Part shown: one piece after another, positions 21,934 to 57,987 of the stretch
Numbering within the stretch: the stretch's first letter is position 1
Layout: every line of letters starts with the position of its first letter
Assembly: GCF_000430995.1 (NCBI RefSeq)
Contig: NZ_HF952018.1
Coordinates: 581,897 to 645,896 of the forward strand
DNA: 64,000 nt
Direction: 5' to 3'
DNA from: Thermobrachium celere DSM 8682
GTDB lineage: Bacteria; Bacillota; Clostridia; Clostridiales; Caloramatoraceae
Notes under the pieces: model-generated
The model's database searches: none
The model's input: only the letters and a program-made list of their open reading frames with translations
What the model was told of the DNA's origin: nothing
Program-made: the position numbers and the translations under genes

Positions 21934-21997
21934 GTGCCACCCAAGTGAAATGTGAAATTATCCATTTCTTGGATTTTACATTGTCACATGGGTGGCA
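21934..21997. repeat. REPIN-like palindrome, copy 1 (complete)
   Basis: A 64-nt imperfect palindrome beginning GTGCCACCCAAGTGAAATGT and ending ACATGGGTGGCA. The outer 9 bp (TGCCACCCA / TGGGTGGCA) are perfect, and inner arms (TTATCC with GGAT) continue the stem. It lies directly 3' of the hexomutase gene. It shares its termini with seven other full or half copies in the window. Confidence 0.85.
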
Positions 21998-23423: not shown

Positions 23424-23485
23424 GTGCCACCCAAGTGAAATGTGAAAAGTCTTGCGACTTTATCACATTGTCACCAGGGTGGCAC
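23424..23485. repeat. REPIN-like palindrome, copy 2 (complete)
   Basis: Begins GTGCCACCCAAGTGAAATGT and ends with CACCAGGGTGGCAC. The centre is an AAGTC-TTGC-GACTT hairpin. It lies 8 nt after the galU stop. Confidence 0.85.
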
Positions 23486-23512: not shown

Positions 23513-23570
23513 GGTGTGATACCTAAGTGAAATGTGAAAAGTCTTGGGACTTTGTGACATTTCACTTGGG
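23513..23570. repeat. REPIN-like palindrome, copy 3 (degenerate ends)
   Basis: The inner arms AAGTGAAATGT and ACATTTCACTT and the AAAGTC/GACTTT centre are kept, but the outer GTGCCACC / GGTGGCAC ends are eroded. It lies 28 nt after copy 2, so galU is followed by a tandem pair. Confidence 0.75.
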
Positions 23571-23586
23571 TTTTGGATTTGTATGA

Positions 23587-53393: not shown

Positions 53394-53460
53394 GTGCCAC
53401 CCAGGTGAAATGTGACATTATCCATAAAATAAAATGGATAAGTATTTTTGCCTGGGTGGT
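53394..53460. repeat. REPIN-like palindrome, copy 4 (complete)
   Basis: Begins GTGCCACCCAGGTGAAATGT and ends GCCTGGGTGGT. The centre TTATCCAT and ATGGATAA pair around AAAATAAA. It lies 5 nt after the pepV stop. Confidence 0.85.
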
Positions 53461-54438: not shown

Positions 54439-55443
54439 ATGAGGTTTGTAAAAAAGATATTTATTTATGCTTTAATTGGAGTAGTTTTGACTGTGCTGCC
54501 TTTGTATTATGTGAATAATATTCTTTTGGCTGAGGCGTCGGCAGATGAAATAAAGGAAGTAGCTTTAACAAATATTAAGAGTGTTTTAAAGAAAAATGGG
54601 ATAACTATTCCAAATGGGGCAGAGTTAATATCTCTTACCAATGATGAAAATGTAGTTGCATATCTATTAAATGGACAAGTTATATTAAAGGATATTAAAT
54701 CTGATAGTGAGGTTGAAAGAATAGTAGAAGACAGTGATATTGTCTATTTTAAGCCCCTTTATGATAGAAATATTATATTGTATTTTATTTATAGCGATAA
54801 TCAGATTAAGATAATGACGTATAATATAGATACAAAGGATAAAATGGAGCATAAATCATTTAGAGTTGACAATTTTGTTAGGGTGAAGGATATAAAATAT
54901 TCAAGCTTAACAAATGTTATTTATGTTTTGGTTGAAACAGGTACAGAGAATGGTTCGTTAGACAAGGTGTATAGAATAGATATTATGAAAAATGTTAGTC
55001 TGTTTTTAAAGGATAAGAATGGAATAAAGGATATGGAGCTTCTAAATAAAGAGGACAGGCTTACTTATCAAGATTTTAATGGGGCTGTTTATGATAAGGG
55101 TAAAAGAGTCGTTTTGAAGGTTAATAAGACAAGATTTAAGGAGTTTGATATTTTAGGTATAGATGAACTGGATAATTTATATTTGTATGAGAAGGGTGAA
55201 AAATCAATTTTTGTATATAAAGATAAGGAATTTGTAGATGGAAAGTCTATACCAGATTTTGAATTTGATAGGATTATTAGTAAGAATAATAGGATTTATT
55301 TAGTCAAGGGCAAAAGGGTTTATGATGTAATTAATTTTAGAGAATTTACAATAGATGAAGCGGATGAAATAATTGATATATTGAATGGAAGAGTGCTTTA
55401 TAAAAGAAATGGTATATATGAGTGCCACCCATGTGAAATGTGA
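54439..55443 (+). CDS. Unknown membrane-anchored protein, C terminus encoded by a repeat
   Basis: Not recognised. It has 334 residues with one N-terminal helix (about 9-28) and a long extracytoplasmic part rich in short beta-strands with spaced aromatic residues (VVAYLLNGQVIL, IILYFIYSDNQIKIMTYNI, VIYVLVETG), which could be a beta-propeller-like fold. The last residues ECHPCEM and the stop codon come from REPIN copy 5, so the original C terminus has been replaced or extended. It begins 12 nt after the glycosidase and is probably co-transcribed with it. Confidence 0.6.
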   Translation: MRFVKKIFIYALIGVVLTVLPLYYVNNILLAEASADEIKEVALTNIKSVLKKNGITIPNGAELISLTNDENVVAYLLNGQVILKDIKSDSEVERIVEDSDIVYFKPLYDRNIILYFIYSDNQIKIMTYNIDTKDKMEHKSFRVDNFVRVKDIKYSSLTNVIYVLVETGTENGSLDKVYRIDIMKNVSLFLKDKNGIKDMELLNKEDRLTYQDFNGAVYDKGKRVVLKVNKTRFKEFDILGIDELDNLYLYEKGEKSIFVYKDKEFVDGKSIPDFEFDRIISKNNRIYLVKGKRVYDVINFREFTIDEADEIIDILNGRVLYKRNGIYECHPCEM

Positions 55444-55470
55444 AATTATCCATTAAATGTAAGTATTGTT
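55422..55470 (+). repeat. REPIN-like element, copy 5 (left arm and centre)
   Basis: Starts GTGCCACCCATGTGAAATGT, has TTATCCATTAAATGTAAGTATT in line with copy 4 (two short runs), but lacks the closing GGGTGGCAC end. The first 22 nt are within the upstream coding sequence. Confidence 0.75.
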
Positions 55471-55474
55471 TCCA

Positions 55475-55508
55475 AAAAATCGTTTAGGCATAAACCTAAA
55501 CGATTTTT
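55475..55508. terminator. Bidirectional terminator
   Basis: AAAAATCGTTTAGG and CCTAAACGATTTTT form a perfect 14-bp stem with a CATAAA loop, and T-runs on both strands. It separates two convergent genes. Confidence 0.88.
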
Positions 55509-56085
55509 ATTTTATTATGATATTTTTAAACCCCATATCCTTTAGCATGTTTCTTAAAAACAAATCAGCCTGTTTATTAACTTGATCTAATATTCCTTTT
55601 TCTAGGGCATCCTTTTCAATTTTCTTTTTTTCTTCTATTATTGCATTGTTATAATCTTCTATTTTTAGAGGATTTAATATGTTCATGCTTTGATCATATA
55701 CTTCAATACTTTTTTCATCTATATATACATCAATTATTTTAGGCTCAGGTAGTGTTATTTCAACTTTGTCTTTATATACGTCAATTTTTACACCATTCAT
55801 ATCAATACCAGCTTTAACATATCCGTTATATTTAATTAAAAAGTGTTTTGATGTAAGGGGGAGGCTTACGTCACCAAACGTAAGGTTATTTTTGAAGCTT
55901 ATGATACCTGTATAGTTGTATTGTACAAGTGAAATATCTTTAATTTGAACTATTTTTTCAAATATATTTGATGATGTATATAAGGGGACATTTGTTTTTA
56001 TTTTTATGATAGATATATATCCTATTAATACTAGATTGGTTATTAGTAAAAACAATGTTATTTTTGTTGGTTTAAACTTAGACAC
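55507..56085 (-). CDS. Membrane-anchored protein, DUF4230-like
   Basis: A 192-residue protein with an N-terminal membrane helix (about 8-27) and an extracytoplasmic domain. IKYNGYVKAGIDMNGVKIDV followed by KVEITLPEPKIIDVYID looks like the DUF4230 family (function unknown). A helical C-terminal part (EEKKKIEKDALEKGILDQVN) follows. It is the only minus-strand gene in the right half of the window and is framed by half REPIN arms at 55422 and 56378. It overlaps the bidirectional terminator by its last two bases. The family name is recalled, not searched. Confidence 0.6.
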   Translation of the reverse strand: MSKFKPTKITLFLLITNLVLIGYISIIKIKTNVPLYTSSNIFEKIVQIKDISLVQYNYTGIISFKNNLTFGDVSLPLTSKHFLIKYNGYVKAGIDMNGVKIDVYKDKVEITLPEPKIIDVYIDEKSIEVYDQSMNILNPLKIEDYNNAIIEEKKKIEKDALEKGILDQVNKQADLFLRNMLKDMGFKNIIIK

Positions 56086-56346
56086 AAGACCACCTTTAAA
56101 ATTTATCTAATAAATAATATGCCTAAAGCTGTTGTTGATGAAACTGAAATAAGAAATTTTGAGTTAAAATATAGGGTGTTTTGTGTAGTGGGAATTAAAA
56201 ATTGTAAGAGGGCGGATTTATGAAATGAAAATGTTAGTTGAATAGTTGAGGTGAAAAATTAAAAAGATTAATTGTAAGTTTGAGAAAATTAAATTTACAG
56301 CAGGATCATGCAATATATTAAAAGTTAATTTTCGTTTGGGTGATGA

Positions 56347-56378
56347 TTGGAAAATTTCACATTTCACTTGGGTGGCAC
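56347..56378 (-). repeat. REPIN-like element, copy 6 (right arm only)
   Basis: Ends with ACATTTCACTTGGGTGGCAC, the exact complement of the left-arm start of copy 7. It lies 53 nt before the RAYT start. Confidence 0.8.
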
Positions 56379-56431
56379 TTATATGTATATTTTTTCAAAA
56401 TGTGGTAATAATTAAGATAGGAGGTGAAAAG

Positions 56432-57292
56432 GTGAGGGAACCAAGATATCATTTTGAAGGTGCAATATATCATGTTACTACTAGATGCAATAATAAAGAA
56501 TATATTTTAGAAAATGATAATTATAAAAGATTTATAATAAAGCAGTTGAAGGACTATAATAAAAAGTTTGATTATGAACTTTTAGGATATGTAATTATGA
56601 ACAATCATTATCATTTGTTGATAAGGACACATAAAGATTCTATTAGTACAATTATGTTTAATTTAAACAATGTAATTGCAAAGTTTTTGAATACTGCACT
56701 TGAAAGAACAGGTCATGCACTTGAAAAGAGGTTTCATTGTAATTTGATTGAGACAGACAGTCAACTATTTGCTACCTTAAGGTATATACACAGAAATCCT
56801 TTAAGGGCAAATATATGTGAGGATGTAGATAAATATTTATGGAGTAGCCATTGGTTTTATAAAAGAGGAATAAATTCATTTGTTAATATAGATTTTATTT
56901 TAGATATGTTAAGTAATGATAGAAAAAAGGCTATTAAGGTATACACAGAGCTTTTACAAGTAGATGGAGATGATAAATTATTTGTTAAAGAGTCTAGTAT
57001 TTTTTCTAACTTACTTGGTATAGTAGAAAAGGAGTTGTACTATGATAAAAATATATATAACAAATTTGAAAAGCCTAATAGGGCATCTTTAGAAGAAATA
57101 AGAGGTAAGCTTAACATTTCTGACTGGGTACTAGAAGAAATAAGAAGAGGAAGTAAAAATCATGTTTTGACACAAATAAAGACAATATTTGTATTGGAGG
57201 CTTTAAAAGAGAAATATTCCCACGTAGAAATTGCGGAGTTTTTGAATATGGATAGGTCAAGTATAAGTAAAATAGCAAGAAAAAATAAATAG
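56432..57292 (+). CDS. REP-associated tyrosine transposase (RAYT, Y1 family)
   Basis: A 286-residue Y1 (HUH) transposase. The HUH motif is NNHYHLL with His59 and His61; the catalytic tyrosine is probably Tyr118 in LRYIHRNPLRA. YHFEGAIYHVTTRCNNKEYI is the classic RAYT N terminus. The C-terminal part ends in a helix-turn-helix (VEIAEFLNMDRSSISKIARK), as in clostridial members. GTG 56432 is preferred because GGAGGTG lies 7 nt before; a reading from 56336 would translate repeat copy 6. The gene is flanked immediately by inverted REP arms (copy 6 before, copy 7 starting at the base after its stop). It probably moves or maintains the repeat family. Confidence 0.88.
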   Translation: MREPRYHFEGAIYHVTTRCNNKEYILENDNYKRFIIKQLKDYNKKFDYELLGYVIMNNHYHLLIRTHKDSISTIMFNLNNVIAKFLNTALERTGHALEKRFHCNLIETDSQLFATLRYIHRNPLRANICEDVDKYLWSSHWFYKRGINSFVNIDFILDMLSNDRKKAIKVYTELLQVDGDDKLFVKESSIFSNLLGIVEKELYYDKNIYNKFEKPNRASLEEIRGKLNISDWVLEEIRRGSKNHVLTQIKTIFVLEALKEKYSHVEIAEFLNMDRSSISKIARKNK

Positions 57293-57340
57293 GTGCCACC
57301 CAAGTGAAATGTGAAATTATCCAAATTTTGTTTGGAAATT
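57293..57340 (+). repeat. REPIN-like element, copy 7 (left arm and centre)
   Basis: Starts GTGCCACCCAAGTGAAATGT directly after the RAYT stop codon. A small TCCAAA/TTTGGA centre is kept and the right arm is missing. Confidence 0.8.
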
Positions 57341-57630
57341 TTATGATGAAAGATTTGGTGATAAGTTTTTTAAAGTGATGAATAACAAAAATGTGATATT
57401 AATTCATAATAGAAAACATTGTTTAAAATAATAAATATATAATTTTAAAATATTTATATCAGATGATGTATTAAATGCTTTAAAAGAGAAATAATTATAA
57501 TACAACGTTTAAAATTGTAGAGTAATTTAATAAAAATATTAAAGCTGTTATTTATTAAAAACAAAATAAATTTTTAAATTTAACCCCTTCAAACAAACAC
57601 CTAAACCCAACTTCAGAAGTTTGTAATAAT

Positions 57631-57675
57631 AAAAAAGCAAAGGCCCCTAATATTAAAGGGGACTTTTGCTTTTTT
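57631..57675. terminator. Orphan terminator hairpin
   Basis: AAAAAGCAAAGGCCCC and GGGGACTTTTGCTTTTT form a long stem with T-runs on both sides. No intact gene ends here on the plus strand; on the minus strand it would follow the remnant at 57734-57955. Confidence 0.75.
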
Positions 57676-57733
57676 GTTTTTATTGTATTGTAATTAAAAA
57701 TAATTTATTTAAAGAAATTATAGTGAAAATATA

Positions 57734-57955
57734 TTATTTTTTTCTAGGAGATATTTTGTTTATTTTTTTAATTATTTCAGCAATATCTTTAAATCCTCCT
57801 AAAAGAATTATTTCTGATAAATTATATTGAAGGAAATTAATTTTATTTTTTGTTTTTTCATAACATAAGAATTTTTGATTAAAAAGAAAAATTAGAGTAG
57901 TTTGTTTGTTTTTTAAAAAGAAATTTAGAATTGTTTAAAAAAATAGCAGCAAAAC
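57734..57955 (-). pseudogene. Possible 3' remnant of a gene
   Basis: A frame open for about 73 codons without a start codon. It ends SEIILLGGFKDIAEIIKKIN, then KISPRKK and a stop. It runs upstream into REPIN arm copy 8 and downstream to the orphan terminator. That looks like a gene truncated by the repeat. The family is not recognised. Confidence 0.35.
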
Positions 57956-57987
57956 ATGGAAATTTTCACATTTCACTTGGGTGGCAC
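57954..57987 (-). repeat. REPIN-like element, copy 8 (right arm only)
   Basis: Ends ACATTTCACTTGGGTGGCAC, like copy 6. It lies 92 nt before the hutH start. Confidence 0.8.

Follow-up and report, generated by a model that had tools for sequence, protein, structure and literature searches.

In Caloramator, a single-copy, vertically inherited HUH/Y1 transposase probably keeps up a population of its own terminal arms across the genome, and this enzyme most likely belongs with the TIRYTs (RAYT group 1, TnpAY1 subclass 2.1). The DNA analyzed, hereafter the window, is 64,000 nucleotides long (C32:581897-645896 of genome G000; 2.64 Mb, 55 contigs), and its host is placed in the genus Caloramator, a heat-loving relative of Clostridium. 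We compared five genomes of this genus, namely G000, G012 (C. proteoclasticus DSM 10124), G013, G014, and G015 (Caloramator sp. mosi_1), together with a family set of 17 genomes and an order set of 225.

The transposase gene starts with GTG, preceded by a ribosome-binding-site-like AGGAGG. Profile searches identified a Y1_Tnp domain in the 286-aa protein (4.3e-10), which narrowly passes the NCBIfam model for REP-associated tyrosine transposases (NF047646; 81.8 bits vs. a cut-off of 80); the IS200 model gave 19.3 bits, below its cut-off of 55. The His59/His61 and Tyr118 named in an earlier note on this DNA hold up: H59, H61, and Y118 are invariant in two alignments (9/9 and 19/19 proteins). In the predicted structure (mean pLDDT 86.6), residues 1-184 match 4er8, a TnpAREP with REP hairpin (Z 16.6, rmsd 2.5, 154 aligned), vs. 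Z 10.3 for the best IS608 chain. The Y1 core (HUH plus Tyr) is therefore nearer to TnpAREP than to IS200 TnpA and, with its gene lying between inverted copies of a dispersed repeat, the protein is a RAYT/TnpAREP in the broad sense. Residues 216-286 match chain B of 8btg (Z 9.1, rmsd 2.2, 70 aligned; for helical folds, Z below about 13 can be chance), a chain that we take to be DnaA, with the matched stretch presumably its domain IV. The model thus ends in an additional helical domain (about 216-286) whose resemblance to a DnaA chain is tentative. Pfam HTH matches fall solely below their cut-offs, and a sequence search of solved structures returned no relative at E ≤1. As to the question, raised earlier, of whether the RAYT is single-copy, it is the sole gene of its kind in G000, although a second, distant Y1 gene (L061) is present with 26% identity. 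In a tree of 79 rows, the RAYT groups with other Clostridia sequences in one clade, and the branch leading to E. coli rayT is very long; the one relative from viral contigs is identical to a Gracilibacter locus over the tree columns.

The earlier note had counted at least eight copies of the arm end in the window, and all eight are present: a 20-mer search (≤3 mismatches) matched at every named place, with no match in 100 shuffles. The site described as eroded corresponds to 23516-23535, while positions 56378 and 57987 mark the heads of the minus-strand matches 56359-56378 and 57968-57987. The inverted arms with their heads toward the RAYT gene were likewise recovered (Table 1). Complete copies do follow the stop codons of the hexomutase, galU, and pepV genes as had been described (gene ends vs. 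heads: 21928/21934, 23416/23424, and 53389/53394), but most copies in G000 are solo arms and not palindromes of 60-67 nt.

Table 1. Transposase gene, arms, and intervening segments in the window (window coordinates)
Feature	Coordinates	Strand	Remarks
64-nt dimer, 5 nt past the hexomutase stop	21934..21997	+	
62-nt dimer, 7 nt past the galU stop	23424..23485	+	
Eroded dimer downstream of galU	23516..23576	+	
Degenerate dimer, 4 nt past the pepV stop	53394..53459	+	
Outer arm, upstream split dimer	55422..55452	+	ORF 54439-55443 ends within this arm, which gives its stop codon
Interval between the arms of the upstream split dimer	55453..56347		Minus-strand ORF 55507-56085; terminator-like hairpin 55475-55508
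Arm upstream of RAYT, head toward gene	56348..56378	-	Read as inner half of a split dimer
RAYT/TIRYT-like Y1 HUH transposase, 286 aa	56432..57292	+	Y1_Tnp, NF047646, fold matches
Arm abutting the RAYT stop codon, head toward gene	57293..57323	+	Read as inner half of a split dimer
Interval between the arms of the hutH-side dimer	57324..57956		Compact dimer (about 66 nt) at this site in G013
Outer arm, hutH-side split dimer	57957..57987	-	G012, G013, G014, and G015 have an orthologue that shares the outer flank

Searching the whole G000 genome with the same 20-mer and threshold returned 74 matches (38 + 36 by strand) vs. none for the reversed pattern. This bears out the dense dispersal proposed for a clostridium, extends it beyond the eight window copies, and rules out a purely local origin of the arms. 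A wider scan of fetched G000 stretches (≤5 mismatches) gave 78 matches, which became 72 arms on removal of two chance-like matches and four on small contigs that duplicate C32 sequence. These contigs (C5, C12, and C51) repeat arm-bearing stretches of C32 and are probably assembly redundancy; C5 contains Ns, and C51 differs slightly from C32. The arms are roughly 31-37 nt long and begin with GTGCC; the consensi of the five Caloramator genomes have GTGCCACCCARGTGAA in common and diverge after it. Arms within 100 kb of the RAYT outnumber a uniform expectation in G000 (14/56, 5.7 expected), G015 (12/39, 2.9 expected), and the family genome G006 (7/25, 1.7 expected). Clustering centered on the gene was nevertheless rejected: the densest 200-kb window lies off it, and in G000 the medians do not differ significantly (p 0.07).

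Solo arms and dimers differ in their shares among genomes. A partner arm (score ≥12 within about 110 nt) accompanies 13 of the 72 arms in G000, and a few more have weak remnants, while in G013 15/16 arms seen sit in compact dimers made of two unlike arms. Four inherited sites hold a compact dimer in G013 and, elsewhere, a solo arm or two arms 0.6-1.5 kb apart. Solo arms are conserved as well as dimer arms in G000, G012, and G015 (pairwise identity solo/dimer: 0.947/0.919, 0.944/0.946, and 0.941/0.929) and slightly less in G014 (0.885/0.911). An inverted doublet that both predominates and is better conserved, which would define a REPIN, is therefore not what G000 contains; G013 has mostly dimers. 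Three single arms folded no better than shuffles (z -0.9, 0.5, and 0.4), and the solo arm was rejected as a hairpin or terminator on this basis; three dimers folded better than shuffles (z -6 to -10). With single arms unfolded and GT[AG]G absent, the units lack the GT[AG]G at a hairpin foot that marks a canonical REP. The suggestion that the repeats act as transcript ends fits some dimers; several solo arms, by eye, precede a separate terminator-like hairpin (one is listed in Table 1). Neighboring arms 100-2500 nt apart point heads-out more often than heads-in (12 vs. 2 in G000), and by eye several such pairs enclose one host-like gene or IS-like ORF. We do not claim TIR-bounded cargo elements from them, given these contents and given that a preference of heads for gene ends would also produce a heads-out bias.

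As judged from sequence, the arms sit head-first at stop codons and are homogeneous within each genome. In G000, 68 of the 72 arms are intergenic; the head side faces a gene 3' end in 47, and 37/68 intergenic heads lie at -26 to +8 nt from a stop codon (gene ends from simple longest-ORF calling). In ten arms a called ORF terminates within the arm, which thus gives the stop. Using a slightly different arm set, heads at stops number 38/68 (G000), 26/47 (G012), 22/30 (G014), 14/42 (G015, a count that comes from a frameshift-rich assembly), and 7/16 (G013). The tail ends at stops number 0, 0, 1, 0, and 0 in the same order (0/74 in G000 and 1/237 across the five genomes), with random intergenic points at 5-10%. 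Among the copies examined, four other arm families have 6/18, 3/22, 7/11, and 4/7 heads at stops and 1, 2, 0, and 1 tails, compared with 9-14% for random points; the second family (3/22) is near the random rate. By eye, arm positions 13-15 read TGA in frame with the leading GTG in the arm types of G000, G001, G003, and G010. Such an in-frame TGA would lessen the harm of insertion near a gene end, and the placement of heads at stops suggests a straightforward explanation for the tolerance of repeats like these.

The gene's neighborhood and substitution ratios support vertical inheritance of the RAYT in Caloramator under purifying selection. It lies near hutH, in a shared hut neighborhood, in G000, G012, G013, and G015; its neighbors are homologs of pepV, hutH, and hutU in G012 and G015 and of hutH and hutU in G013. 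Identity to G012/G013 is 80%/58% for the RAYT and 92%/88% for hutH. Between G000 and G012, pN/pS is 0.18 for the RAYT, 0.10 for hutH, and 0.15 for pepV; between G000 and G013, it is 0.43 for the RAYT vs. 0.12 for hutH. G015 is a complete chromosome, yet homologs of the window genes near hutH are nearly all in several pieces there (L124). The RAYT of G015 is also broken, likely by sequencing (frameshift) error, since the neighboring genes are in pieces as well.

We did not find a RAYT in G014 (assembly 96% complete). At its hutH locus, the two outer arms are kept and the gene is absent, and because this syntenic locus retains the arms, the loss in G014 reads as secondary. The same repeats in a genome with no RAYT had been named in advance as grounds for refutation; this situation does occur in G014 (34-35 copies), but the hutH locus turns it into a case of loss. 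Deletion between two direct arms would be one conceivable route, but the G014 segment between the arms matches DNA from both sides of the gene, namely RAYT-downstream DNA of G000 (30 nt) and G012 (49 nt) and, as its best match, RAYT-upstream DNA of G015 (56 nt). Arm decay is only slightly greater in the RAYT-less G014 (p 0.04-0.06 over three tests), too little for us to claim faster decay there. Caloramator forms a natural series, with the gene intact, the gene and repeats diverged (G013), or the gene lost (G014), for studying what keeps the members of a bacterial repeat population alike.

To compare arm types with resident enzymes, six arm patterns, each from inverted arms flanking a RAYT, were run against the 17 family genomes. 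The GTGCCACCC type has 70 copies in G000, 58 in G012, 12 in G013, 34 in G014, 46 in G015, and one each in G006 and G007, and a second type has seven in G010 and two in G011. Copies of the CTGGCAGCC type number 19 in G012, 25 in G013, nine in G014, seven in G015, 12 in G009, and 35 in G011 (mostly a variant at 3 mismatches), plus one in G004, two in G007, and one in G010, with none in G000. The arm type of G006 has 29 copies there, six in G005, and three in G010; of two further types, one has 14 copies in G001 and 10 in G004, and the other has 106 in G003. Each type is thus multicopy in few genomes, and five follow the genomes with their RAYT well. The expectation that repeats track RAYT presence fails for the CTGGCAGCC type: no RAYT with such arms was identified in G011, G009, G014, or G015, despite multicopy arms. 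Likewise, no RAYT with arms of the G006 type was identified in G005. At ≤1 mismatch across the 225 order genomes, the Caloramator 20-mer is multicopy in four Caloramator genomes alone; G013, G089, and G104 have one match each, and the reversed control has one in G220. RAYT relatives were collected as 81 loci from named genomes and viral contigs, of which 79 were examined; inverted arms scoring at least 18 flank 50/79, vs. 1.6% of mispaired controls, with heads such as GGGGTCAGGC, GGGGACGG, GGTGCCAGGCACC, and similar. These sequence comparisons tie the enzyme to its arms, the arm type differing between genomes with different enzymes.

Many arm sites are common to species with large silent divergence in their genes; empty sites are few and not clean (five candidates, two informative). 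We identified 154 reciprocal-best orthologous arm pairs, and the junction is exact in 81. Among exact-junction pairs (the five tabulated genome pairs without G013), identity is 62-91% at the gene end, 87-100% over the first 20 arm nucleotides, and about 30-50% beyond +40 nt (ungapped). In 15/15 pairs that involve G013, the distance between orthologous arms exceeds the paralogue mean, and the G000-G013 distance is 9.7 for orthologous vs. 4.0 for paralogous arms (of 30 nt). Elsewhere, the signal is mixed, and orthologues lie beyond the paralogue mean in 18/34 (G000-G012), 13/19 (G000-G014), 17/23 (G000-G015), 14/20 (G012-G014), 13/23 (G012-G015), and 10/20 (G014-G015). Arm sequence thus appears to follow the genome more than the site, clearly so where the enzyme has most diverged (G013). 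Between genomes, orthologous arms are slightly closer on average than non-orthologous copies, so some memory of the site remains.

From these patterns, we infer that arms are copied or rewritten. The enzyme would recognize the arm in single-stranded DNA, as a dimer hairpin or through its C-terminal domain, and would nick at the A-rich/GTGCC junction; it would then copy arms, either into new positions near stop codons or onto arms already in place, and so keep them uniform. The dimer is the probable mobile unit, and a solo arm would be its remnant after decay or displacement of the half farther from the gene end. Counted against this reading are the few, unclean empty sites, the mixed signal in comparisons other than those with G013, the narrow margin of the NF047646 match, the persistence of arm copies in G014 without the gene, and the occurrence of the CTGGCAGCC and G006 types in genomes where no matching RAYT was identified.

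It is possible, if on the unlikely side, that arm sites are fixed insertion hotspots, at which each species' own arm independently hit the same stop-proximal positions and older copies were lost, with no rewriting in place. The base before the head is A in 88% of 132 site groups, three of the four other arm families share the stop-proximal preference, and some sites carry an arm in one species but none in another, all as hotspots would predict. Yet A-rich sites are common and the junction is nonetheless exact in 81/154 orthologous pairs, and many sites would need repeated loss and re-hit. Rewriting in place and repeated hotspot insertion are both possible.

We consider it unlikely that the arms are host-selected 3'-end elements (for stop supply, termination, or mRNA stability) to which the enzyme is now a bystander. 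The head-at-stop bias is in keeping with selection by the host, as is the retention of the first 20 nt at exact junctions next to downstream DNA that is unalignable without gaps. One dimer separates convergent ORFs (11607); by eye, another stands between a CDS and the 3' end of a tRNA, and a third occupies the place of a terminator-like hairpin in a relative. Against this reading, arm sequence is genome-specific at shared sites and arm types mostly follow the resident enzyme; moreover, solo arms are unfolded, and several precede their own separate terminator-like hairpin.

A bolder version of the preferred reading, which we regard as rather improbable, is that the enzyme, besides spreading arms, rewrites inherited, stop-anchored arms in place, the arms being held uniform in each genome and re-specified as its specificity drifts; the arm would be a transcribed functional mark, and the DnaA-like domain would link the system to replication. 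The arm tail resembles a DnaA box in G000 and G012 and hardly in G014 and G015 (31/70 G000 arms lie ≤2 mismatches from TTATCCACA, vs. 4/50 in G015). We leave this resemblance as speculation, the arm copies being not independent.

The layout is nearer to TIRYT/TIRtron than to REP/REPIN. In TIRYT/TIRtron (Di Nocera and colleagues 2013, PMC3733652), a Y1 transposase likewise lies between long inverted repeats, which in some species are dispersed in moderate abundance as dimers or clusters. The GGGGWSAS heads of TIRYT are also found in many of the RAYT relatives examined here (GGGGTCAG, GGGGACGG); the Caloramator head (GTGCCACCC / GTGCCACC) has diverged and fits them loosely. Beyond the TIRYT description, Caloramator shows a genus-wide population, solo-arm dominance (G000), heads placed at stops, and arm sequences that differ by genome at inherited sites. 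TnpAY1 subclass 2.1 is equated with RAYT group 1 of Bertels 2017 in a survey (Quentin 2018, PMC6006769) where its members are long Y1 proteins, as is the Caloramator enzyme, with a C-terminal extension resembling DnaA/HTH domains, a resemblance toward which the Caloramator protein leans. That survey detected no REP-like sequences near subclass 2.1 genes by automatic or manual search, whereas several probable subclass 2.1 genes here each have a multicopy arm family. A probable member of a subclass surveyed without cognate repeats thereby gains its own repeat families. TIRYT families with dispersed terminal repeats and the frequent supply of stop codons by GTAG REPs (PMC3733652) are already in print; a clostridial RAYT repeat family was not found in the literature searched, which took in subscription journals in part.

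There is little probability that the system is a classical gammaproteobacterial REP/REPIN-RAYT merely found in a clostridium, the layout named in the earlier note. That comparison was right about a RAYT-like enzyme with its own dispersed family, and it is favored by the NF047646 match, the best fold match to TnpAREP, the folding of dimers, the dispersal, arm types that differ with the enzyme, and the dimers of G013. REPIN-RAYT systems (PMC3116915, PMC8049555) and the E. coli REPtron share a single-copy vertical enzyme, cognate dispersed repeats, inverted dimers, and gene-end placement with Caloramator. The arms are, however, not canonical REPs: a single arm has neither a hairpin nor a GT[AG]G foot, dimers are a minority in G000, its predominant solo arms are conserved like dimer arms (as in three of four genomes), and the enzyme carries the extra C-terminal helical domain. 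By contrast, P. fluorescens REP singlets are described as less conserved remnants (PMC3116915). An ordinary IS200/IS605-like element with scattered dead ends would explain the Y1 domain and the inverted arms, and some distant relatives are multicopy (e.g., G009 with 23 matches), but it is scarcely credible for a lone gene of its type that four genomes have inherited at the same place and that is under purifying selection, yet has about 70 near-identical arms.

The second Y1 gene of G000 (L061) belongs to a sister Y1 group that is multicopy in G009, G005, and G006. By eye, three copies from this group (L061, and L043 and L052 of G009) have GGGACA-type ends that are inverted between the two sides. 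The group is possibly an autonomous cousin of the domesticated RAYT gene.

Caloramator arms serve as IS landing sites: in nine arms of G012 (loci L335, L353, L123 [1-300], L339, L340, L347, L348, L354, and L328), the head is interrupted by an IS, or by a small element related to it, with ends CGGAGGTCTC. One interrupted arm contains a transposase start that, by eye, we take to be IS1182-like. REPs have likewise been reported as IS landing sites (PMC1525189). Between pepV and the RAYT of G012, the split dimer in L123 encloses, by eye, a degenerate stretch that resembles a reverse transcriptase and may be left over from a group II intron.
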